Shown in pieces: positions 1,980 to 13,528 of a DNA stretch of 16,562 nucleotides (position 1 is its first letter; every line of letters begins with the position of its first letter). The position numbers and the translations under genes are program-made. The stretch is from a bacterium. GTDB lineage: Bacteria > Blakebacterota > Blakebacteria > Blakebacterales > Blakebacteraceae. The notes beneath the pieces were generated by a model. It was not told where the DNA came from, ran no database searches, and saw only the letters and a list, made by a program, of their open reading frames with translations. The DNA lies in contig JALGVQ010000038.1 of assembly GCA_025774615.1 (NCBI GenBank), positions 1 through 16,562 of the forward strand, read 5' to 3'.

Positions 1980-3806
1980 CTAGTACTCCAGTGCCTCATC
2001 CACCTTCTGCGCGACTTCGGCGGCGATCCGGTCACTCTCCTCGACGAGTGACTGCAGTCCCCCGACCATCTCCTGCCTGAAGGCCTCATCGTCGATACTC
2101 GGCAGGTTGATACGTACGTTATAGGCTGCGGCGTGTACGCCGGCACGAGCCATCAGGGCGCCGGTACCAACATCGCTGATCATGTTCGGATCGGCATGTT
2201 CAACCATCTCCCGGCAGAGATCGAGAGCGGCCTTGCACTGTTCCACCGTGCTGAAGGGAACCCGGGTCGCGGCCTTGTACCCCTCCTGCATGGCGCGGGC
2301 GCGCACAGCGAGTTCCTCTTCTGTGTCCTTCGGCATGCGCATCGCCTCGAGTACCGAATCGAATGCCAGGGTGTCCTCGTCCACTCCGCGCACGAGAGCA
2401 TCCTTGACGGCCTGACCGCGTTCAGCAAGTTCGCACAGTTCATCATACATCGAGTCGAACTCACCCTTGCCGACCGAGAGGTTGGCAACCATTGAGGCGA
2501 GCGCTGCTCCGAGCGCGCCCGACAATGCGGCGACCGATCCGCCACCGGGGGCTGGAGTATCGCGCGAGACTTCATCGATAAAGTCGAAGGTGGACCGGTT
2601 CACGAGTTCGCCATCGACCTGCGGAAGGCCGAGCACTTTCTCCTCGATGTCGAATGGGGTTACATCCGCGAGACCCATCGACTGGACTGCGGTATCCATC
2701 AGATCGGAGATCGGGATCCCGGTGGATTTCATCATCATCTTCCGGTAGTAGACTCCGGCCTTGCGCATCGCGTCGAAGGGGATCACTCCGACGATCTCGG
2801 AACCGGTGAGCCCGATGCCCCGCTTCCGGGCTTCCTCGCGCGCCGTCTCCAGCACCTCATTTGGGGGACTGACGTGGTAATTGGTGAGGTTCATGCTGAT
2901 CTGAGCGCGATTGTAATCCTCGATCACCCACCCGATTGCCTTGACGTCCCTGAAGCGTCCGTCTTTGAAGACGTGCCCCTTCGGATCAGCGGGGTCGATC
3001 TCGAGTGAGGCGTACCGTGCGGCCAGATCACCGTCGTGCTCCTCACGGTAGTGATCGGCGAGTTCCTCGAACGAGTTACCGATGTAATCGCAATTGCCGC
3101 AGGGATGGGTGCCGTCGCCGGGAAAGTCCACCACGTCACCCTTGTAATAGAATGGCTCTGTGTTCCCGGTTCTTTTCCAGCGCCCCCGCTCCCGAATTTC
3201 ATAGGCGATCTCGTTGGCGTACCGCCTGTCGGTCGAGTTGAGGTTGATGTTGTACGCGATGAGGAACTCCCTGGCGCCGACACCGGTCACACCTGCCGTG
3301 GGATTGAGTTCGGCGGGGCCGAAATCGGGCTTCCATTCGGGATCCTTCAGCTTTTCGGCCATTCCCTCATACTCGCCGGCCCTGACCCGGGCCAGATTCC
3401 GACGCTCCGGTTTCGATGCTGCGTGCTCGTAGAGGTAGACGGAGATACCGAGTTCATCGCCGATGCGGCGGCCCACCTGACGGGCGATCTCAGCGCACTC
3501 CTCCATGGTCACCCCTGAAACCGGAACGAACGGCACCACGTCGGTAGCCCCCATGCGCGGGTGTTCACCCTTGTGGCTGCGCATGTCGATTATTTCCGAG
3601 GCGCGCTTCACACTCACGAACGCGGCCTCGGTCACGGCCTCCGGAGAACCCACGATCGTCACGACGGTCCTGTTGGTATTCGCTCCCGGGTCGACATCGA
3701 GCAACCTGATACCGGGAACACTCTCGATGGTGTCGGTGATATCCTTGATGATGGCAGGGTTCTGCCCCTCCGAGAAGTTGGGTACGCATTCCACGATCCG
3801 TTCCAT
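1980..3806 (-). CDS. ftcD: Bifunctional glutamate formimidoyltransferase / formimidoyltetrahydrofolate cyclodeaminase, with zinc-finger-like insert
   Basis: This enzyme would transfer the formimino group of N-formimino-L-glutamate (from histidine degradation) to tetrahydrofolate, releasing glutamate. It would then deaminate the product to 5,10-methenyl-THF and ammonia. The protein is 608 residues. The transferase domain starts at once with VECVPNFSEG (5-14) and has EHPRMGA (81-87), whose His82 matches the active-site His of mammalian FTCD. A second transferase subdomain resumes at about 285-390. The cyclodeaminase domain occupies about 400-608, with TPAPGGGSVAA (417-427). Residues about 210-281 form an extra segment, between the REXGR and KAIGW motifs, that is much longer than the linker in animal FTCD. 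It contains Cys236, Cys239, His252 and His257 in a C-x2-C-x12-H-x4-H pattern. GGAG lies 10 nt before the ATG. The SDR gene follows in the same operon; no hut genes are in view. Cytoplasmic. Confidence 0.95.
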   Translation of the reverse strand: MERIVECVPNFSEGQNPAIIKDITDTIESVPGIRLLDVDPGANTNRTVVTIVGSPEAVTEAAFVSVKRASEIIDMRSHKGEHPRMGATDVVPFVPVSGVTMEECAEIARQVGRRIGDELGISVYLYEHAASKPERRNLARVRAGEYEGMAEKLKDPEWKPDFGPAELNPTAGVTGVGAREFLIAYNINLNSTDRRYANEIAYEIRERGRWKRTGNTEPFYYKGDVVDFPGDGTHPCGNCDYIGNSFEELADHYREEHDGDLAARYASLEIDPADPKGHVFKDGRFRDVKAIGWVIEDYNRAQISMNLTNYHVSPPNEVLETAREEARKRGIGLTGSEIVGVIPFDAMRKAGVYYRKMMMKSTGIPISDLMDTAVQSMGLADVTPFDIEEKVLGLPQVDGELVNRSTFDFIDEVSRDTPAPGGGSVAALSGALGAALASMVANLSVGKGEFDSMYDELCELAERGQAVKDALVRGVDEDTLAFDSVLEAMRMPKDTEEELAVRARAMQEGYKAATRVPFSTVEQCKAALDLCREMVEHADPNMISDVGTGALMARAGVHAAAYNVRINLPSIDDEAFRQEMVGGLQSLVEESDRIAAEVAQKVDEALEY

Positions 3807-3924
3807 ATCAGGCTGACTCCAGGGTCTGAGAAGTGTGTTGTTCGAACCAGTGCCCTGTCACGCGACAACTGTGGCATGACATAATGATGATACAGGGGAG
3901 TCATGAAGGCAACGATTCGCCATC

Positions 3925-3952
3925 TTGAGCGATACCCCTGGATGGATATAGG
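3925..3952 (+). promoter_or_regulatory. Possible promoter for the DUF4954 gene
   Basis: TTGAGC (3925-3930) and TATAGG (3947-3952) are spaced 16 bp apart, about 75 nt upstream of the preferred start at 4035. A perfect 10-bp palindrome GGGTATACCC sits at 3951-3960, directly over the -10 edge. If real, this promoter excludes translation from the earlier ATG at 3903. The match is moderate. In the rest of this divergent gap (3807-4034) I see only weak promoter-like sequences for ftcD. Confidence 0.3.
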
Positions 3953-4034
3953 GTATACCCTCCAGTTGAGGATATCGCCACTGAATGTGGCTCCCGGGGA
4001 TGTTCGTCGGTTTCATCGACAAGGAAGCAATGTG

Positions 4035-6230
4035 ATGAACAAGATCGCTAAAGAACCGCTCAACCGACTTGGATACGATTTCATCCCTGCGGAATTCCTT
4101 CCTGATGGCGGGGACGAATACCATCTGCGCCTGGAACAGCATCCGGGAGATGGTGCCCTCCGTGCCCTCACAGGTGAAGAGATCGAGATCCTCACACGGA
4201 ACGGGAACCTGGCGGATGATTGGGGCGAGATCTCGGTGACTGATCCTTTCGATCCGCAGCTCGTGCGCGGCTGCAGGTTCCACGGGATGATCCGGATCGG
4301 CGAGCTTCGGGAGACCTGGCGCGAACATCACGACCTCCGCGTGCCTGTCGGTATCTACAACTCGACGATCGTATCATCGGATCTCGGCGCGAACGTCGCG
4401 ATCGATCGCGTGGGGTATCTGGGCCACTACATCGTCGGAGAGGGCGTCATCCTGCTGAACATAGGTGAGATGCTCACTACGAACCGCGCCCGGTTCGGAA
4501 ACGGGATCGTGAAGGAAGGCGAGGCCGGGGATGAGCGGACATGGCTGCGGGTCGGCAACGAGAACGGCGGGCGCAGGGTGTTGCCCTTTGACGGCATGCT
4601 TCCGGCCGATGCGTGGCTCTGGTCGAAGTACCGGGATGACGAGCGACTTCAGGAGAGGCTGATAGAGCTGACCGATGGCATCCTTGATCGACGACGGGGA
4701 TGGTACGGAACCGTTGGAGATCGAACCGCCATCAGGCACTGCGGGATCGTGCGCGATGTCAGGGTCGGCACCGATGCATGCATAGCGGGAGCAGGCAGGT
4801 TGGAGAACCTCACCATCAACAGTGACGGGGGATCGGGTACGCGGATCGGCGAGGGATGTTCACTGGTGAACGGCATCATCGGATTCGGTTGCCACATCTT
4901 CCAGGATGTAAAGGCGATCGGGTTCGTGATGGGTTCGAACGCGAACCTCGAACGTGGCGCGCGGTTCTTCGATTCCTTCCTCGGAGACAACTCCACGGTA
5001 GCGTGCGGTGAAGTCGTGAGCGCGCTGATCTTCCCGGGGCACGAGCAGCATCACAGCAACTCGTTCCTCATTGCCTCTACCATCGGTGGACAGAGCAACA
5101 TTGCGGCGGGCGCGACCATCGGCTCGAATCACAACTCACGGGCTGCCGATGGCGAGATCATCGCCGGTCGCGGATTCTGGCCCGGCCTGATGACGAGCCT
5201 GAAGCACAATTGCCGATTCGCCTCATTCACCCTGATCGCCAAGGGACAGTACCCTGCGGAGCTGGACATTCCGTTCCCCTTCTCGCTCATCTCGAATGAC
5301 GAATCAACGGGTCAGCTGCAGGTGATGCCCGCCTACTGGTTCCTCTACAACATGTACGCGCTGGCGCGGAACAGCTGGAAGTTCGACGCTCGCGATCGAC
5401 GGGAGCACCGGGAACAGCATCTGGAGTTCAACCACCTCGCACCCGACACGATCGAAGAGATGTTCACCGGCATCACTCTCCTCGAGAGATCGGTTGGCAG
5501 GGCGGCGATCCTGGCTGAAGAGGAAAGCCCTGAGGGTGTGACTGATGAAGAACTCGGGAAGAGGGGCAGATCCCTGCTCGATTCCTCCCCTGAAACAGTC
5601 GGGAGTCTGACCGTTCTCGGTGAGAACATGGAAAACTCCCGGCGTCCGGTCGTGGTCCTCAAGGCGGCTGAGGCGTGGGCAGTCTATCGTGAGATGATCC
5701 ACCTCTATGCTGTAGAGACACTGCTCTCCTTCATGGATGACAGTGCGATCACCTCGTTCGATGACCTCAGTGACCGCATGGAGGGTGCCGAACGCGCCCG
5801 CTGGCTGAATGCAGGCGGTCAGGTCGTCCCCGAGAAGGAGATCCGTTCACTCAGAGAGCGCATCGCAGGTGGTGAACTGAACTCGTGGGATGAGGTGCAC
5901 TCCGAATATGACCGGATATGGAACGAATACCCTGAAAAGAGAGCGGGACACGCCTGGGCGTCCCTGCTTGAGATCAACGACGTTACGGCTGCCGGACCTG
6001 ATCGGAAGGGCTGGAAGATGTTCCTGGACAGGGCCGCCGCCACCCGTCGCTCGATTGCCGAATTGACGACGCAATCGCGTCGGAAGGACTACACCGGCCA
6101 TTTCAGACAGATCGCCTATGACTCTCAGGAGGAGATGGACGCTGTCCTGGGAAGGATCGACGAGGACAGTTTCCTCCAGTTGATGAATGCGCGCGCCGAG
6201 GAATTCGAACACTGGATCGGGGATGCCTGA
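4035..6230 (+). CDS. DUF4954 family protein, hexapeptide-repeat (left-handed beta-helix) fold
   Basis: Recognised as the DUF4954 family known from Bacteroidota, spirochaetes and relatives; its function is not established. Numbered from ATG 4035 (731 residues), an N-terminal LTGEEIEIL block (45-53) precedes two stretches of irregular hexapeptide turns, at about 106-161 and 224-370. Highly conserved signatures follow: GATIGSNHNSR (359-369), GRGFWPGL, SLKHNCRFASFTL (388-400) and PAYWFLYNMYALARN (432-446). The last 280 residues are mostly charged and probably helical. Such beta-helices occur in acyl- and nucleotidyl-sugar transferases, but no active site is assignable. The frame is open back to ATG 3903, giving 44 more residues. 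I prefer 4035 because AAGGA at 4021-4025 is well spaced and the extra residues do not resemble the family, whereas GGAG is only 2 nt from the 3903 start. The stop overlaps the next start by 8 nt. Probably cytoplasmic: no signal peptide. Confidence 0.88.
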   Translation: MNKIAKEPLNRLGYDFIPAEFLPDGGDEYHLRLEQHPGDGALRALTGEEIEILTRNGNLADDWGEISVTDPFDPQLVRGCRFHGMIRIGELRETWREHHDLRVPVGIYNSTIVSSDLGANVAIDRVGYLGHYIVGEGVILLNIGEMLTTNRARFGNGIVKEGEAGDERTWLRVGNENGGRRVLPFDGMLPADAWLWSKYRDDERLQERLIELTDGILDRRRGWYGTVGDRTAIRHCGIVRDVRVGTDACIAGAGRLENLTINSDGGSGTRIGEGCSLVNGIIGFGCHIFQDVKAIGFVMGSNANLERGARFFDSFLGDNSTVACGEVVSALIFPGHEQHHSNSFLIASTIGGQSNIAAGATIGSNHNSRAADGEIIAGRGFWPGLMTSLKHNCRFASFTLIAKGQYPAELDIPFPFSLISNDESTGQLQVMPAYWFLYNMYALARNSWKFDARDRREHREQHLEFNHLAPDTIEEMFTGITLLERSVGRAAILAEEESPEGVTDEELGKRGRSLLDSSPETVGSLTVLGENMENSRRPVVVLKAAEAWAVYREMIHLYAVETLLSFMDDSAITSFDDLSDRMEGAERARWLNAGGQVVPEKEIRSLRERIAGGELNSWDEVHSEYDRIWNEYPEKRAGHAWASLLEINDVTAAGPDRKGWKMFLDRAAATRRSIAELTTQSRRKDYTGHFRQIAYDSQEEMDAVLGRIDEDSFLQLMNARAEEFEHWIGDA

Positions 6231-7152
6231 GATTCCTCCGATGCCTGATATCCCTCCACAGATCTCCCGGTACCGCGATCTGGCAGACGACTGGGATGCC
6301 TTTGAAGCGGCGCTTCGAAACCCGCTTCCAACGGATATCCGCTGGAATCCCTTCAAGGTCACCCGTGAGCGGTTCGAGGAGAGGCTGACCAGCGACGGCG
6401 TGAGATGGAGACTCCTTGAAGGTTCCCCCGACCTCTATCGTGTCGAGGGTCTGCCCGGTCCCGGACTGACCTGGGGGTACCACCTCGGCTGGTATCATCC
6501 ACAGGGATACACTTCGACCCTGCCTCCTGTCATTCTGGCTCCTGAACCAGGCTCGGATGTCCTCGATCTCTGTGCCGCGCCGGGTGGGAAAACGGCTCAG
6601 CTATCAGCACTCATGCTGGGACATGGAGTGCTGGTCGCCAACGACATCAATCACTCCCGGATCACTGCACTTGCGGCAAACCTCGAGCGACTCGGCACTC
6701 CGAATGTTCTGATCAGCCAGTACCGTGGAGAGAACTATCCCGAACGGTTCACGTTCGACCATGTGCTGGCGGACGTGCCCTGTACCGGTGAAGGAACGTT
6801 CAGGGTTGGCGGCGGTCGTTATCGCCAGGAGGGTACAAAGCATCTGCAAGCTGTCGCCCGGACACAGCTTGCCCTGCTCCTCAAGGCGCTGAAAATCGTG
6901 CGTCCCGGCGGGACGGTACTGTATTCGACCTGCACGTACGCCCCCGAGGAGAACGAGGCGGTCGTTGCCGCCGCGCTGTCGAAGATGGAACTCGAACTGC
7001 TTCCCCTTCCTGATGATCTGACCGGCCAGCCGGGGATAACTTCCTGGGAGGGAATGGACTGGCCGGATGAACTCACCCGGACCATGCGATTCTGGCCGCA
7101 TCACACTGACTCATGGGGATTTTACTGTGCTCACATCCGCAAACCCGGCTGA
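6223..7152 (+). CDS. RsmB/RsmF (NOL1/NOP2/Sun)-family RNA 5-methylcytosine methyltransferase, catalytic part
   Basis: This SAM-dependent enzyme would methylate a cytosine C5 in rRNA or tRNA. Numbered from ATG 6223 (309 residues), LDLCAAPGGKT (114-124) binds SAM and AND (139-141) gives the acidic ribose contact. DVPCTGEG (184-191) is motif IV with Cys187, the release cysteine, and YSTCTYAPEENE (234-245) is motif VI with Cys237, the expected nucleophile. RFWPHH followed by GFYCAHIRK ends the fold. The chain stops there, without the C-terminal PUA-like domain of E. coli RsmF; that domain is encoded by the next, overlapping gene. ATG 6223 overlaps the upstream stop (ATGCCTGA), suggesting translational coupling. 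An in-frame ATG at 6187 would give 12 more residues but has no ribosome site, and 6241 is also possible. Target nucleotide unknown. Confidence 0.93.
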   Translation: MPEIPPMPDIPPQISRYRDLADDWDAFEAALRNPLPTDIRWNPFKVTRERFEERLTSDGVRWRLLEGSPDLYRVEGLPGPGLTWGYHLGWYHPQGYTSTLPPVILAPEPGSDVLDLCAAPGGKTAQLSALMLGHGVLVANDINHSRITALAANLERLGTPNVLISQYRGENYPERFTFDHVLADVPCTGEGTFRVGGGRYRQEGTKHLQAVARTQLALLLKALKIVRPGGTVLYSTCTYAPEENEAVVAAALSKMELELLPLPDDLTGQPGITSWEGMDWPDELTRTMRFWPHHTDSWGFYCAHIRKPG

Positions 7153-7636
7153 AAAACGGGCCCTCCAGGCAATCTATGAGGAACGCTTCGGCATTCCCGC
7201 CCGGGCGATGGAGGAGTGGTTTGTCTATTCCACCGGCTCGGTTCTCTGGGGACTGCGTGATGCTCCGCATCTTGACGAGGCCCTGGCTGCTTTACGGTTC
7301 GAGCGGACCGGGCTCCCCCTGCTGCGGAGGGCGGGCCGGTTCTGGAAACCGACCACGGTAGCCCTTCAGGTAGTCGGGAAGTTCGTTTTACGCAATATGC
7401 TCGAATTGAGCAGGCAGGAACTGGAAACGATCCTCATCGAAGGTGAACTGCGCGGGACACGCGCCGACGTGGAGCAGGGGTATGTGGCACTCACCGGCCC
7501 GGACGGTGTGGTCGGATGCGGGCTCTACCTTGATCCCGATGAAGACCATAATGAAGGCCTGCTCATCTCCCAGCTTTCTAAAGCCCGCTGGTCAGGAATG
7601 ATATCGTCGGCTGTTCAGGCGCTCCCCGGCCGATAA
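7127..7636 (+). CDS. COG3270-like ribosome-biogenesis protein: detached PUA-like C-terminal domain of RsmF-type methyltransferases
   Basis: This 169-residue protein resembles the NOL1/NOP2/Fmu 'ribosome biogenesis' C-terminal unit. Its features are an N-terminal FGIP segment (21-24), LPLLRRAGRFWKPTT (63-77), and a PUA-like strand pattern GYVAL..DGVVGCGLY (118-133). A terminal SQLSKARW (148-155) replaces the usual ...LPK.xR. It probably binds RNA and supplies substrate recognition for the methyltransferase encoded just upstream. I chose GTG 7127, since TGGGGA at 7114-7119 precedes it by 7 nt and the start overlaps the methyltransferase by only 26 nt. ATG 7067 is in frame but would add 20 residues over an 86-nt overlap and lacks a good site. 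The 3' end overlaps the convergent kinase gene by 22 bp. Family assignment is by pattern and moderately sure. Confidence 0.78.
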   Translation: MLTSANPAEKRALQAIYEERFGIPARAMEEWFVYSTGSVLWGLRDAPHLDEALAALRFERTGLPLLRRAGRFWKPTTVALQVVGKFVLRNMLELSRQELETILIEGELRGTRADVEQGYVALTGPDGVVGCGLYLDPDEDHNEGLLISQLSKARWSGMISSAVQALPGR

Positions 7637-9783
7637 CGATATACAAGGGCCGCCAGATATCCGAAGAGACAGCCCATGAGCGGGCGGAACAGCTCCAGCC
7701 AGTATGACCAACGCCAACAGGCGAAATAGGAAAAAGCGACGAGAAACAGCATCAGAAGCACGATATAGAAACTTCCTCGCGCGATCCGCAGCTCCATGGC
7801 GAGCAACCCACCCACGGCCCCCAGAATAATAACGAGAAGAGAGCCCAGCCCGGCTCCCATGGCCGTTCCGAAATCTCTTTGCAGGAGATTGGCGAGCAGG
7901 ACCGTGTGGATATATGGTCCGGGATTGCCCGCCGACAATGGGGTGGTATGGGCATTCATCAGTCCCGGAGCCGTGATACCAACCATGCTGACACTTCCTT
8001 CAAAGACATCTTCAGACTGTCCGACCCGACCCTCCAGGACGTCGTAGAAAGAGAGTTCGCGAAAGGGATTACCGCTTGAGGGGTACCACCGCAGCAGCAG
8101 GCGCCCCCGCGTATCGATCGGAAGGCGGTAGCTGCCTCCAATCAGGTATCGTCCCGGAATGATGCGCAGATCTTCGATCTGTATCCCCATGATATCGAGG
8201 AACACCCTGAATCCCACCGAAGGGATCAGTCGGTCGTGATATCGGACCAGCAGGTAGTGACGGCGGACTACACCGTCGGAATCGGGGAACAGATTCGACA
8301 AACCGATCCCGCGGCTGGCTGATTCGATCAGGGGAGTCGGACTGCTGAGGGCCAGATCGTCACCCAGGTCGGGCAGGTGTTCGGCTCCCGGCACCATATC
8401 AATCGGGATCGTATGCATGGTCAGTGTTGCAGCGAGGCGGAGCGAATCTATCATGGAGCCAAACACATAGCTGTTCTGCTCGATCAGCCGCATGGTGGTA
8501 TTCACCATCTCTGCTTCAGTCATGTCACGCGCGAAAATCTCATCGACCTCCGGGGTCAGGTCTTCATCGGAAAAAGGGATGTCGAAGCAGATCGAAGCGG
8601 CTCCCCAGTCTGCCAGCTCCCGTGTCAGATCTCCATATCGAGAACTGGGCCACCCGGCAAAGCGGCCATATTTCATCAACGCGCGGTTATCCACTCTGAT
8701 CAGGAAAAGACCACTGTCGGGGTCGAATGGCTCCGTCAGGTCGAGGGCGAACCGGACACGGGCATCGTAGAGACGGTTCTCAAAGCCTTCGAATATCCCA
8801 TTCATCAATCCATAGGTCAGAATGGCAATAGCGAGAGCGGTCAGTGCCCCGGTCAGCACTGTCCTTAACCTGAGCTTTATTCTCCGTGATCTGAACCAGA
8901 CTGGCGCCGTCCTGCCGATCGTCCCTCTCAGAACAGGGCCTTCAACGCTTGCGAGATACCCGGCGGCCGTCTGCATCGCGATCAGGTCGAATACCACCTG
9001 TTCGGTCGACTGGTATCGATCATCCGGGTTCTTCTGCAGCAGCTTCAGGATGATCTTTTCGAGCCTGGATGGAAGGTCGGGGCGAAGATCACGCGGTGGC
9101 TCGGGATCGGTTCCAAGCACTGCGTAGTGGATGGCATGGAGATCATCTCCGGTGAACGGCCGGGAACCGGTGAACATCTCATACAGGGTTGCGCCGAGAG
9201 AAAAGAGATCACTTCGATGATCGATCTTTCCGCCCTGTATCTGTTCCGGGCTCATATACCCGGTCGTACCCATGTCAACGTCGCCCTCGGCAGCTGAAGT
9301 GCCCAACGAAAAACGCGCCAGGCCGAAATCGGTTATCTTCAGCCATCCATGCTCATCAAGCATGAGATTGGCCGGCTTGATGTCCCGGTGAATGATGCCG
9401 CGGTTATGGGCTTCAGCCAGACCTTCAGCGGCCTGCCGGGCCCATGCTACAGTTGTCTCCAGGGAGGGTAGTGCTTTGCCTGCCTCGGTCAGACGGTCAG
9501 TTATTGAGCCGCCTTCGAGATACTCCATGACGATCAGGAGCTCTCCCTCTTCCTCCTTGATCTCAAACACCTGCGCGACGTTGGGATGATTGATGCGTGC
9601 CGCGGATCGTGCTTCCCGAATGAACTGTTCCCGCTGCTTTCCGGTCTGTTCACGGTGGATGGGAGGGGCTTTGATGGCGACCAGGCGATCCAGGGCGGTA
9701 TCTTCAGCGAGCCATACCACGCCCATCCCCCCCTTGCCGAGCATCTCAGTAATATGGAACGGTCCAATCTGGCGGCCGATCAT
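7615..9783 (-). CDS. Transmembrane serine/threonine protein kinase with CHASE2 sensor domain
   Basis: The 722-residue chain begins with a complete Hanks-type kinase (about 8-268): GKGGMG (16-21) glycine loop, Lys38 in VAIK, Glu57 of helix C, HRDIKPAN (132-139) with catalytic Asp134, DFG (152-154) and GTTGYMSPE (172-180). After a basic linker there is one membrane segment (about 309-328). A CHASE2 extracytoplasmic sensor follows (about 330-640), showing LYDARVRF (338-345), RVDNRALMKYGRF (363-375) and WPSSRYGDLTRELADWG (378-394). Three closely spaced hydrophobic segments (about 642-662, 671-688 and 698-715) end the protein, the standard CHASE2 arrangement. It should sit in the inner membrane with the kinase in the cytoplasm and CHASE2 in the periplasm. 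All catalytic residues are present, so it is probably active. Ligand and substrates are unknown. The ATG lacks a strong ribosome site (GGGG, 5 nt away), but the kinase fold allows no later start. Confidence 0.96.
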   Translation of the reverse strand: MIGRQIGPFHITEMLGKGGMGVVWLAEDTALDRLVAIKAPPIHREQTGKQREQFIREARSAARINHPNVAQVFEIKEEEGELLIVMEYLEGGSITDRLTEAGKALPSLETTVAWARQAAEGLAEAHNRGIIHRDIKPANLMLDEHGWLKITDFGLARFSLGTSAAEGDVDMGTTGYMSPEQIQGGKIDHRSDLFSLGATLYEMFTGSRPFTGDDLHAIHYAVLGTDPEPPRDLRPDLPSRLEKIILKLLQKNPDDRYQSTEQVVFDLIAMQTAAGYLASVEGPVLRGTIGRTAPVWFRSRRIKLRLRTVLTGALTALAIAILTYGLMNGIFEGFENRLYDARVRFALDLTEPFDPDSGLFLIRVDNRALMKYGRFAGWPSSRYGDLTRELADWGAASICFDIPFSDEDLTPEVDEIFARDMTEAEMVNTTMRLIEQNSYVFGSMIDSLRLAATLTMHTIPIDMVPGAEHLPDLGDDLALSSPTPLIESASRGIGLSNLFPDSDGVVRRHYLLVRYHDRLIPSVGFRVFLDIMGIQIEDLRIIPGRYLIGGSYRLPIDTRGRLLLRWYPSSGNPFRELSFYDVLEGRVGQSEDVFEGSVSMVGITAPGLMNAHTTPLSAGNPGPYIHTVLLANLLQRDFGTAMGAGLGSLLVIILGAVGGLLAMELRIARGSFYIVLLMLFLVAFSYFACWRWSYWLELFRPLMGCLFGYLAALVYRYRPGSA

Positions 9784-9978: not shown

Positions 9979-12333
9979 ATGAAGCGCACTGTACTGCGAA
10001 CCACACTGCTCATCCTGATCCTTCTGCCCCTGGTGGCCCATGCCCAGGAGAAGAGAGCGATCGAGCCGGAGGATTATTACGCGGTGAAGCGTGTGAGTTC
10101 GACCGAACTCTCTCCGGACGGTCGGTACCTGCTCTATGCGGTCCAGACCGTACGGCAGGATGAGAATGACCGTCTGACCGAAATCTGGTGGACCGACCTG
10201 CAGTCGGGTACGAACCGCAGGCTCAGCACCGCCGGTGCCAACACTACCAGCCCCCACTGGACACCGGATGGGAAACGGATCTATTTCACGACGACCCGGG
10301 GAGATGAGAGCGGTCTTCACTTCCTCAATTTCCTGGAACCGGGGGGTGAGGCCTACCGCATCCCGTCGATCCCGAACAATCCGCGATTCACCCTTGATGG
10401 GAAGTGGATCGTCTTCACACGTCAGGTTGCCGAAGAGGCGGAAGAAGAGAGTGGTGAACGGGGTGATCGGCCAGAACGGGAGGCAGTGCCCCAGAGTCGT
10501 CAGCGCGGGTCGAATCCCGATGGCATCCCCGGTCTGGCCAGACGGATGGGAACTGAATGGGCCGGCACGACTGAGCAGGAGCGGAATCAGGACGTCTATG
10601 TCATTACCACCTCCAGCTACAAACGGAACGGGCAGCTCAATTTCAACACCGGTTCAGGAGGGGGCGGCTTCAGCAGGGGACAGTTCGGCGGTTTTGGAGG
10701 CCAGGGAGGGGGCGATGGACGGTACACCCAATTCTTCCGGATGCCCGCGACCGGCCTGGCTGAGGATGAGGAAGCCGAACAGATGACCACCGATCCATGG
10801 AACAAGAGCTTCCAGGGTTTCAGCCCTGATGGTCGCTCTATCATCTACACAGTCGACCTGGGTCAGAAGGAGGAGCGGGAGGAAACAGAGGACCCGCGTG
10901 AACGCCCACCCACGCGTCTGGGGATCTTCCTTCTCCCGATCGATGGCGGAGAGGGTCATCAGATCGCCGAGGAAACGGGCTCCCTGCGCGGGATCGCGAT
11001 GTCCCCCGACGGTTCGAAGCTGGCGTACTCCATCAGCGTAGATCGGCAGCAGCCTGCTGTTGTCAGGGTGATAACCACCGGCGGCGAGAAGGTATCAGAA
11101 GCGGGTGGAGAAGAGTGGGTGTACGGATTCGGATCGCTGACCTGGACCACCGACAGCGCCAGTCTTCTTACGACCTCCTCGATCGGAGGACAGACGCAGG
11201 TGATGCGGATCACCGCCGCTACAGGCGATTTCGAGCCGATCACCGGGGGAGATCAGGTCCTCTCGGGTGTCACCTTCGATCGGGCCATGACGAAGATGGC
11301 TTTCGTCATGGATTCCGCCGAGTTGCCGTGGGAGGCATACGTCGCCCGAATCGATGGTTCCGCCGTGACGCGCGTGAGCGAGGTGAACACCACCTGGATG
11401 GGCGAGGTGAAACTCAGCCGGGTCGAGCGGATCACCTTCGAGGGTGCGCGCCACAACGAGGAATGGCTCGACAACCTGCCGAAGCGGGGAGTGGAGTACA
11501 TGATGACCCACGAGGCGCCCCGCGGAGAGCGGCCGACGATCGAAGGATGGCTCATGTACCCCCTCGACTACCAGGAGGGCACACAATACCCCCTCGTACT
11601 CTCGATCCACGGCGGCCCCCACTCTGCTTACCGGCATACCTGGTTCCCCGAGTTCCAGATGGTCGCGGCCGAGGGGATCTTTGTCCTCTACATCAACCCG
11701 CGCGGTTCGGGCTCATACGGCAGACACTTCTCGAGCATGATCATGGAGTCGTGGGGAATAGATGACTACAAGGACTACATGCAGGCGGTCGATCTGGTTG
11801 TGGACCGCGGGATAGTGGATGAGAGTGCCATGGGGGTCACGGGGGGTTCCTACGGCGGATTCATGACCAACTGGATCACTGCACATAACGACCGTTTCAA
11901 GTGCGCCATCACCGCCCGCAGCATCTGCAACTGGATCAGTTTCTACGGAATCTCGGACGCTTCTGGGCTCGTTGAGAATGAATTCGGAGGCAGGCCGTGG
12001 CCCTTCGAATCTGAGGATGAGGGGAGCTGGAACCGCGACATGATGCTGAGTCCCATTGCCTGGGCCGACCAGGTGAAGACACCCACGCTGATCATCCACA
12101 GCATCAACGATTATCGCTGTCCTCTGGCAGAAGCAGAGCAGTGGTTCAGAGCGCTCAAGAAGAACGAAGTACCGGTCAAGATGGTCCTCTTCCCTGATTC
12201 CACACACGATCTTTCCCGGACGGGTGAACCGTGGCTGCTGGTGCGCCGCCTGCAGGAGTATGTGGACTGGTTCGGGGCCTATCTGGTGGATGATGAGCCG
12301 GTTGTCGACGCCAACGGTCCGATCGGGAGGTAG
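9979..12333 (+). CDS. Secreted S9-family serine peptidase (prolyl oligopeptidase / acylaminoacyl-peptidase type)
   Basis: A 784-residue exported peptidase that would cleave short peptides in the periplasm or outside. Residues 1-22 are a Sec signal peptide (KR start, LLILILLPLV core, AHA before Gln23). A beta-propeller follows, with repeated blade motifs: SPDGRYLLYA (45-54), TPDGKRIYFT (95-104), SPDGRSIIYT (282-291) and SPDGSKLAYS (342-351). The C-terminal alpha/beta hydrolase (about 515-770) has HGGPHSAY (544-551) for the oxyanion region and GGSYGGF (622-628) with nucleophile Ser624. Asp711 (NDYRCP) and His743 (STHD) complete the triad. Two low-complexity inserts interrupt the propeller: a Glu/Arg-rich run at about 151-175 and a Gly-rich run at about 225-248. 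GGAGG with 8-nt spacing supports this start. The aminotransferase gene follows after 34 bp. Substrate specificity within S9 is not predictable. Confidence 0.96.
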   Translation: MKRTVLRTTLLILILLPLVAHAQEKRAIEPEDYYAVKRVSSTELSPDGRYLLYAVQTVRQDENDRLTEIWWTDLQSGTNRRLSTAGANTTSPHWTPDGKRIYFTTTRGDESGLHFLNFLEPGGEAYRIPSIPNNPRFTLDGKWIVFTRQVAEEAEEESGERGDRPEREAVPQSRQRGSNPDGIPGLARRMGTEWAGTTEQERNQDVYVITTSSYKRNGQLNFNTGSGGGGFSRGQFGGFGGQGGGDGRYTQFFRMPATGLAEDEEAEQMTTDPWNKSFQGFSPDGRSIIYTVDLGQKEEREETEDPRERPPTRLGIFLLPIDGGEGHQIAEETGSLRGIAMSPDGSKLAYSISVDRQQPAVVRVITTGGEKVSEAGGEEWVYGFGSLTWTTDSASLLTTSSIGGQTQVMRITAATGDFEPITGGDQVLSGVTFDRAMTKMAFVMDSAELPWEAYVARIDGSAVTRVSEVNTTWMGEVKLSRVERITFEGARHNEEWLDNLPKRGVEYMMTHEAPRGERPTIEGWLMYPLDYQEGTQYPLVLSIHGGPHSAYRHTWFPEFQMVAAEGIFVLYINPRGSGSYGRHFSSMIMESWGIDDYKDYMQAVDLVVDRGIVDESAMGVTGGSYGGFMTNWITAHNDRFKCAITARSICNWISFYGISDASGLVENEFGGRPWPFESEDEGSWNRDMMLSPIAWADQVKTPTLIIHSINDYRCPLAEAEQWFRALKKNEVPVKMVLFPDSTHDLSRTGEPWLLVRRLQEYVDWFGAYLVDDEPVVDANGPIGR

Positions 12334-12367
12334 GTCTGGACTGAACCTTCGCAGGAAGGTGGCAGGG

Positions 12368-13528
12368 ATGGAATCTGAAGTGGCAGACACAATGATAGTG
12401 AATCTGGCTGATGACGCGCCGGCGCTCCTCGAGCGTCGGCGCTTCCTCACGGTACTCGGTGCCGGAGCCGCCGTGGCAACTGCGATCCTTCCGGCCTGCA
12501 CCGTGTCCGAACCGGTCGTACTGGGTCCGGGCAGAGGGACTTCGAAACTCAATCAGAACGAGAATCCGCTGGGGCCGAGCGATGCCGAGCGCCGGGCCAT
12601 GAAGGCGGCGCTCGACCTGGCGAACCGGTATCCCGGTGGTGAAGGAGAACTCCTCCGTTTTCTTGAGGCTCATCACGGGGTCGATACAGAGTGCTTCCTG
12701 TTGGGATGCGGTTCGACAGAACTGCTGAAGGTCTGTGCCGAGGCTTCTCTCGATGGTACGAAGAACCTGGTGCAGGGATCACCGACCTATCCCACCCTGG
12801 AACGATACGCGCGGGTATATGGAGCCGATATCAGGTCGGTTCCGGTCGATGATAGCGGACATATCGATCTTGTCGGTCTTGCGTCACAGACAGATTCGCG
12901 GACCGGGGTGATCTATCTCTGCAATCCGAACAATCCCACCAGTACGGTGCTTCCAGACGCCATGATACGTGATTTCATCGACCAGATGCCGGAGCAGGCG
13001 CTCATCGTATGTGACGAGGCTTATCACGAGTTCGTGGACGACCCCGGATACAGGAGCCTCGTCGACCTGGCAGTAAAGAGGCAGAACCTTGTCGTGCTGC
13101 GCACTTTCAGCAAAGTATACGGCCTGGCGGGGATGAGGGTCGGTTATGCCATCGGACATCCCGACACGATCGCGGCGCTTGCGCCCTACGGCCTTTCGAT
13201 CAACCTGAACAACCCCGGGCTCCATGCGGCGATCGCCGCGCTCCAGGATCACGACTTCGTCCGGGAGTCGGTAAGGATGAACGCACAGTCCCGCGAGGCG
13301 ATCTTCAATGAGATGCTCCGGTTCGGCGGCACACCAGTTCCGAGCCAGGCCGGATTCGTCTGGATCGATTTTGGTCGGGAGGCTGAATCGATTGCGCGGG
13401 CACTTGTGGATCGGCATGTGTTCGTAAGGAGATATGACCACTCACCGCAGCACCTGCGGATCTCGACCGGACGACCACAGGACATGGACCGGCTCTTCCG
13501 GGCGATGGAGGAAATTACTGTAGTGTGA
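12368..13528 (+). CDS. HisC-like PLP-dependent aminotransferase with Tat (lipo)protein signal
   Basis: A 386-residue fold-type I aminotransferase of the class I/II, histidinol-phosphate aminotransferase-like group. NQNENPLGP (62-70) opens the substrate-binding arm. Other features are GCGSTELL (113-120), CNPNNPT (185-191), CDEAYHEF (215-222, with Asp216 pairing to the PLP nitrogen) and FSKVYGLAGMRVGY (247-260), where Lys249 forms the Schiff base. LRIS (363-366) carries the carboxylate-binding Arg364. Unlike biosynthetic HisC, it has an N-terminal ERRRFLTVLGAGAAV segment (22-36), a twin-arginine signal, followed by LPAC (41-44), which could be a lipobox. It is therefore probably folded with PLP in the cytoplasm and exported, possibly as a lipoprotein. 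AAGG at 12356-12359, 8 nt upstream, supports ATG 12368. A longer frame from 12224 would bury the signal and overlap the peptidase. Substrate unknown; a role in His synthesis is unlikely. Confidence 0.93.
   Translation: MESEVADTMIVNLADDAPALLERRRFLTVLGAGAAVATAILPACTVSEPVVLGPGRGTSKLNQNENPLGPSDAERRAMKAALDLANRYPGGEGELLRFLEAHHGVDTECFLLGCGSTELLKVCAEASLDGTKNLVQGSPTYPTLERYARVYGADIRSVPVDDSGHIDLVGLASQTDSRTGVIYLCNPNNPTSTVLPDAMIRDFIDQMPEQALIVCDEAYHEFVDDPGYRSLVDLAVKRQNLVVLRTFSKVYGLAGMRVGYAIGHPDTIAALAPYGLSINLNNPGLHAAIAALQDHDFVRESVRMNAQSREAIFNEMLRFGGTPVPSQAGFVWIDFGREAESIARALVDRHVFVRRYDHSPQHLRISTGRPQDMDRLFRAMEEITVV

Follow-up and report, generated by a model that had tools for sequence, protein, structure and literature searches.

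We found that the bifunctional glutamate formimidoyltransferase / formimidoyl-THF cyclodeaminase (FTCD) encoded in the window, by which we mean the whole 16,562-nucleotide stretch of DNA analysed here, carries a predicted C2H2 finger within its formimidoyltransferase domain, and that the four ligand residues of this finger very probably form a zinc site. Eukaryotes, and animal proteins above all, are the familiar setting of C2H2 fingers, and the bacterial examples are mainly the Ros/MucR regulators; here such a finger appears nested in a known enzyme family, that of a folate enzyme, and inherited through several phyla, overlooked because it narrowly misses the usual detection rules. The complete reading, in which the inserted C2H2 finger both holds zinc and serves for protein contact, we consider fairly probable. 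A survey of the open literature found nothing relevant on zinc or a finger in FTCD.

The FTCD gene occupies positions 1980 to 3806 on the minus strand and encodes 608 amino acids, with matches to TIGR02024, Pfam and 1tt9. The protein scored 366 bits against the NCBI equivalog model TIGR02024 FtcD (cut-off 221) and exceeded the Pfam gathering scores (cut-offs 24-27) for the two transferase subdomains, PF07837 (256.6 bits) and PF02971 (149.9 bits), and for the cyclodeaminase, PF04961 (212 bits), while rat FTCD 1tt9 matched it over its whole length (phmmer, E 1.6e-121). The position of His82, a catalytic residue of the transferase in the pig enzyme, is invariant in 47 of 47 aligned insert-bearing homologs, and the glycine-rich loop of the cyclodeaminase (P420-G-G-G-S424) is likewise invariant in the aligned insert-bearing homologs. 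A finger-bearing FTCD would still catalyse the usual two reactions, and since urocanase is encoded in the window genome and in 17 of 20 other genomes checked, the window FTCD probably acts in histidine degradation.

An earlier note had read a C-x2-C-x12-H-x4-H motif into this protein, and its reading frame, residue numbers and coordinates proved correct: on the minus strand, the ligands are Cys236 (TGC, 3099..3101), Cys239 (TGC, 3090..3092), His252 (3051..3053) and His257 (3036..3038), within a finger core of residues 233-258 (3033..3110) that is defined by ligand conservation, the AlphaFold2 fold and profile matches to C2H2 fingers. The claim that animal FTCD lacks the surrounding insert also held. 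Mammalian FTCD (1tt9, 1qd1) shares the two-domain architecture of the window protein, but the phmmer alignment jumps from residue 211 to 282 (insert residues 210-281, 2964..3179, minus strand), the rat and pig enzymes having no finger and two residues in place of the roughly 70 of the window protein. The size of 72 residues, however, stands only against animals, because the segment measures 100 residues with the insert versus 51 in the nearest insert-free bacterial FTCDs, for a net difference of about 49. Both arms of a hairpin are common to insert-bearing and insert-free FTCDs (e.g. REGSPVTGKIVK..DENGNTVMIPG in Bacteroidota). The outgoing neck (residues 212-228, 3123..3173, minus strand), in which R212 and Y220 are invariant across 54 homologs, aligns with the first hairpin strand of insert-free FTCDs, and the return strand (residues 276-285, 2952..2981, minus strand) contains an invariant G283 and nearly invariant G277 and F285. 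Bacteroidota-type fused FTCDs, which are 43-48% identical to the window protein and fall in a separate part of the tree, have these same arms on both sides, but a short hairpin turn replaces the finger, and in the alignment the finger and a second helix (residues 261-267, 3006..3026, minus strand, from the model and the alignment to the PRMT3 finger 1wir, where it is matched) stand in place of that turn. The 72 residues thus appear, from the alignment, to combine a finger module with a hairpin that many bacteria also possess, and residues 233-271 would form an independent C2H2 zinc-finger domain inserted into the tip of a surface beta-hairpin that belongs to the C-terminal formimidoyltransferase subdomain.

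We then assembled homologs by searching an insert-region profile against 386 genomes, followed by phylum-wide searches, and obtained 54 distinct insert-bearing FTCDs. When the insert was shuffled 200,000 times, a motif of the form C-x2-C-x12-H-x3..5-H arose 27 times, but ligand conservation is a far stronger test: all four ligands, in the C2H2 spacing C-x2-4-C-x12-H-x3-5-H, are kept in 48 of 54 homologs. Free variation of these residues among insert-bearing homologs, which would have spoken against the earlier note, was not seen, as Cys236 is retained in 52 of 54 (otherwise Ser), Cys239 in 49 (otherwise Asp), and His252 and His257 in 52 each (otherwise Tyr), with losses concentrated in a few proteins. 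When changes were counted on the tree, the four ligands ranked with the slowest-changing residues in the insert (Cys236, one change; His252, one; His257, two; Cys239, five), compared to up to 33 changes at other module positions. P235, G237 and an aromatic residue at 241 are conserved as well. The hydrophobic core proposed in the note fared less uniformly: position 241 is a conserved aromatic (Phe in 49 and Tyr in 3 of 54), whereas the positions of Ile242, Phe246 and Leu249 vary, the last being Thr in 32 of 54 homologs. Estimates of dN/dS for the module were unreliable, with synonymous changes near saturation and only 40 codons.

AlphaFold2 modelling of the full-length protein from 47 full-length homologs (mean pLDDT 92.9) predicted a beta-beta-alpha C2H2 fold, with DSSP assigning a strand at 234-235, the knuckle at 236-239, a strand at 242-243, a helix at 246-257 (3036..3071, minus strand) that bears both His ligands, and a helix at 261-267. 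Scattering of the ligands in a structure model, which would also have spoken against the note, was not predicted: they fall on a strand-knuckle-strand-helix arrangement with a fragment pLDDT of about 90-95. When the whole model was compared with the PDB, FTCD, cyclodeaminase and unrelated folds took up the matches, and the insert was therefore folded alone (residues 206-294, AlphaFold2, 53 homologs). The isolated fragment retained the two helices and short strands with a core pLDDT of 90-95, in the one of five models that was confident (87.1 versus 66.7-72.0 for the other four). Foldseek matched the fragment mostly to C2H2 fingers, with the PRMT3 finger 1wir first, and superposed it on several solved single C2H2 fingers at 0.4-1.2 Å over 24-27 residues (for 5znf, 1.2 Å over 27 columns), with weak E-values (best 0.26). 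These superpositions bear indirectly on whether the four ligands cluster within metal-binding distance. VIA-align gave Z of at most 2.7 for every chain, and Ros/MucR was absent from its matches, which at such a size is uninformative on kinship. Such weak structural E-values and Z scores are expected for a domain of about 30 residues, and we do not rely on them.

Searched against all PDB sequences (177,635), the insert profile placed C2H2-finger proteins on top (CTCF, PRMT3, ZHX1, REI1, ADR1 and ZNF462), and the PRMT3 finger was matched at all four ligands and along the stretch after them (RQHTPCLFCDRLFASAEETFSHCKLEHQFNIDSMVHKHGLE), scoring 22.7 bits (hmmsearch E 0.0037 among the 177,635 sequences), a score reached by none of 2000 ligand-fixed shuffles (maximum 17.1), and with an hhalign probability of 95.5. 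These data show a similarity to the PRMT3 finger that extends beyond the ligands, a similarity of sequence as opposed to descent. The Ros spacing is C-x2-C-x9-H-x3-H, from which the FTCD finger departs with x12 and x4. Pfam gathering scores and PROSITE PS00028 are means of detecting C2H2 fingers, not definitions of the fold. Many insert-bearing members are matched by Pfam zinc-finger models, but under the gathering scores of these models (zf_C2H2_ZHX on the window FTCD, 12.5-16 bits versus 27), and the PROSITE pattern matches none of the 54: it calls for a hydrophobic residue at position 243, four residues after the second Cys, where these proteins have Gly, Ala, Thr or Ser. Together, the low Pfam scores and the PROSITE failure would explain why the finger goes unannotated.

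The insert is carried by 88% and 74% identical proteins from genus and family relatives, and insert-bearing FTCDs span seven phylum-level groups by the phylum lists of the search tool. They occur in the phylum-level groups of the window genome (G000) and of G225, and the insert-bearing genomes number 13 of 17 in the group of G006, 31 of 40 in that of G346, 4 of 6 in that of G200, 1 of 8 in that of G350 and 1 of 2 in that of G120. A further insert-bearing FTCD (L034) lies on a short contig labelled Holophagaceae (Acidobacteriota), a label to be treated with care. An 18-base Rex site, CTGTGAATCAATTCACAT, has been published for Caldithrix abyssi (PMC5317091); among the 40 genomes of its phylum, only the closed genome G346 contains it, and this genome, which encodes an insert-bearing FTCD, is almost certainly that of C. 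abyssi. In Bacteroidota and other bacteria a short linker takes the place of the insert, and a contig scan that gave mostly insert-free Bacteroidota supplied the insert-free comparison set. A tree of 87 FTCDs, computed from an alignment stripped of the insert columns and with its root not fixed, placed all 51 insert-bearing rows together, set off by one branch (SH-aLRT 100). One gain or one loss of the insert would both fit this topology; how widely the insert-free relatives are spread speaks for a gain. We infer that the insertion is a gain, and the finger would have entered once, early in one bacterial FTCD lineage now found in at least seven phyla.

Six of the 54 proteins have lost at least one ligand and retain the insert, suggesting that the metal may be dispensable in some insert-bearing FTCDs. 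Only Cys239 is lost in L122, L123 and L171, and two ligands are lost in L118. The sister FTCDs L169 and L173 (G428 and G431, genomes larger than 8 Mb) display stepwise decay of the finger, with two ligands lost in both and all four in L173 (S, D, Y and Y). Permuting the losses among proteins gave p ~1e-5 for the observed clustering, treating proteins as independent of phylogeny. In all five cases in which Cys239 is replaced, the replacement is Asp. The Ros/MucR proteins are transcription regulators with a larger fold, unlike the FTCD finger, but as bacterial C2H2 fingers they show similar departures: in Ml1-Ml3 of Mesorhizobium loti, Asp replaces the second Cys and ligates zinc, while Ml4 and Ml5 fold without zinc (PMC9779718). 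The losses in FTCD look, by sequence, like these two routes, namely an Asp ligand or a zinc-free fold.

The same losses could be read to mean that the four residues bind no metal, the motif being a coincidence or the relic of a once metal-binding domain. The insert persists in L173 without any of its ligands and in L118 and L169 without two, and the Pfam thresholds are unmet; however, few positions of the module change as slowly as the ligands, whose losses coincide, and the window protein combines all four with a confidently predicted finger fold, making this explanation quite improbable. We infer instead that a metal is bound and that it is zinc: one structural Zn(II), held by Cys236, Cys239, His252 and His257, would keep the small domain folded. 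Such a zinc might do nothing beyond pinning the tip of a long hairpin, a purely structural cap with no other use. That insert-free FTCDs form the same hairpin with a simple turn, and that several members keep the module after losing ligands, is consistent with a cap, but capping a hairpin does not require a 49-residue module, and P235, G237 and the aromatic 241 are conserved besides the ligands; we regard a mere cap as unlikely.

Mammalian FTCD channels its folate intermediate. Sitting within the transferase domain of such a bifunctional enzyme, the finger might lie close to the folate tunnel and help pass the polyglutamated intermediate on from the transferase site to that of the cyclodeaminase. 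In most members the finger is followed by a Lys-rich stretch (SVKKPG), in keeping with this role, but the module itself is acidic (mean net charge -4.4) and would be a poor partner for polyglutamate, so that channelling by the finger seems improbable. The same acidity, together with the presence of one finger only and its location in a metabolic enzyme, argues against binding of DNA or RNA and against FTCD as a moonlighting regulator; although C2H2 fingers often bind nucleic acid, with Ros/MucR as bacterial examples (PMC9779718), we give this explanation very little credence. In the reading we prefer, the finger would give the enzyme an additional contact surface, most likely for protein (an adjacent FTCD subunit or some partner) and not for DNA. 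Contact with a protein or between subunits is more likely than binding to DNA, and we offer it as a guess at the role of the finger.

As a precedent for what one finger might do for an enzyme, PRMT3 comes nearest: its finger is reported to be needed for binding its natural substrates (PMC12827779). PRMT3 and FTCD each bear one finger, with the same C-x2-C-x12-H-x4-H ligand spacing and a similar stretch after it, but PRMT3 is eukaryotic and its finger lies N-terminal to the catalytic domain, whereas that of FTCD is nested in the catalytic domain. A more specific proposal, which we put forward as a long shot, is that bacterial FTCD recruited a PRMT3-like finger once, as a protein-docking module linking histidine-derived one-carbon flux to a partner, with zinc or redox state serving as a switch. 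C. abyssi, which is in culture and likely has the finger, opens metal content, oligomer state and channelling to direct testing, and the ligand losses found in nature provide ready-made comparisons.

Around FTCD in 14 genomes, we found no constant gene neighbour or operon partner. An SDR-family dehydrogenase gene lies directly downstream of FTCD (window:1173-1967) and also adjoins FTCD in the related genome G003 (L181:5536-6342); it is the only recurrent FTCD neighbour, within the window's own family. Stand-alone cyclodeaminase-like genes are found close to fused, finger-bearing FTCDs in two genomes of one phylum (L182:4969-5685 in G006 and L186:7898-8545 in G396), and their products contain the sequences ...STPGGGSVAAL and ...HVPGGGSVASL. 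Elsewhere in the window, positions 3903-6230 encode a 775-aa DUF4954 protein with a C-terminal DUF6819, and a 189-aa ORF with no Pfam match (7067-7636) overlaps the end of an RsmF-like rRNA methyltransferase gene (6187-7152). Positions 7618-9783 join a CHASE2 sensor domain to a serine/threonine kinase domain. A class I/II aminotransferase is encoded at 12224-13528, and its N-terminal RRRFLTVLGAGAAVATAILPAC resembles a twin-arginine export signal with a lipobox-like Cys. Export of a class I/II aminotransferase, if true, would be unusual.
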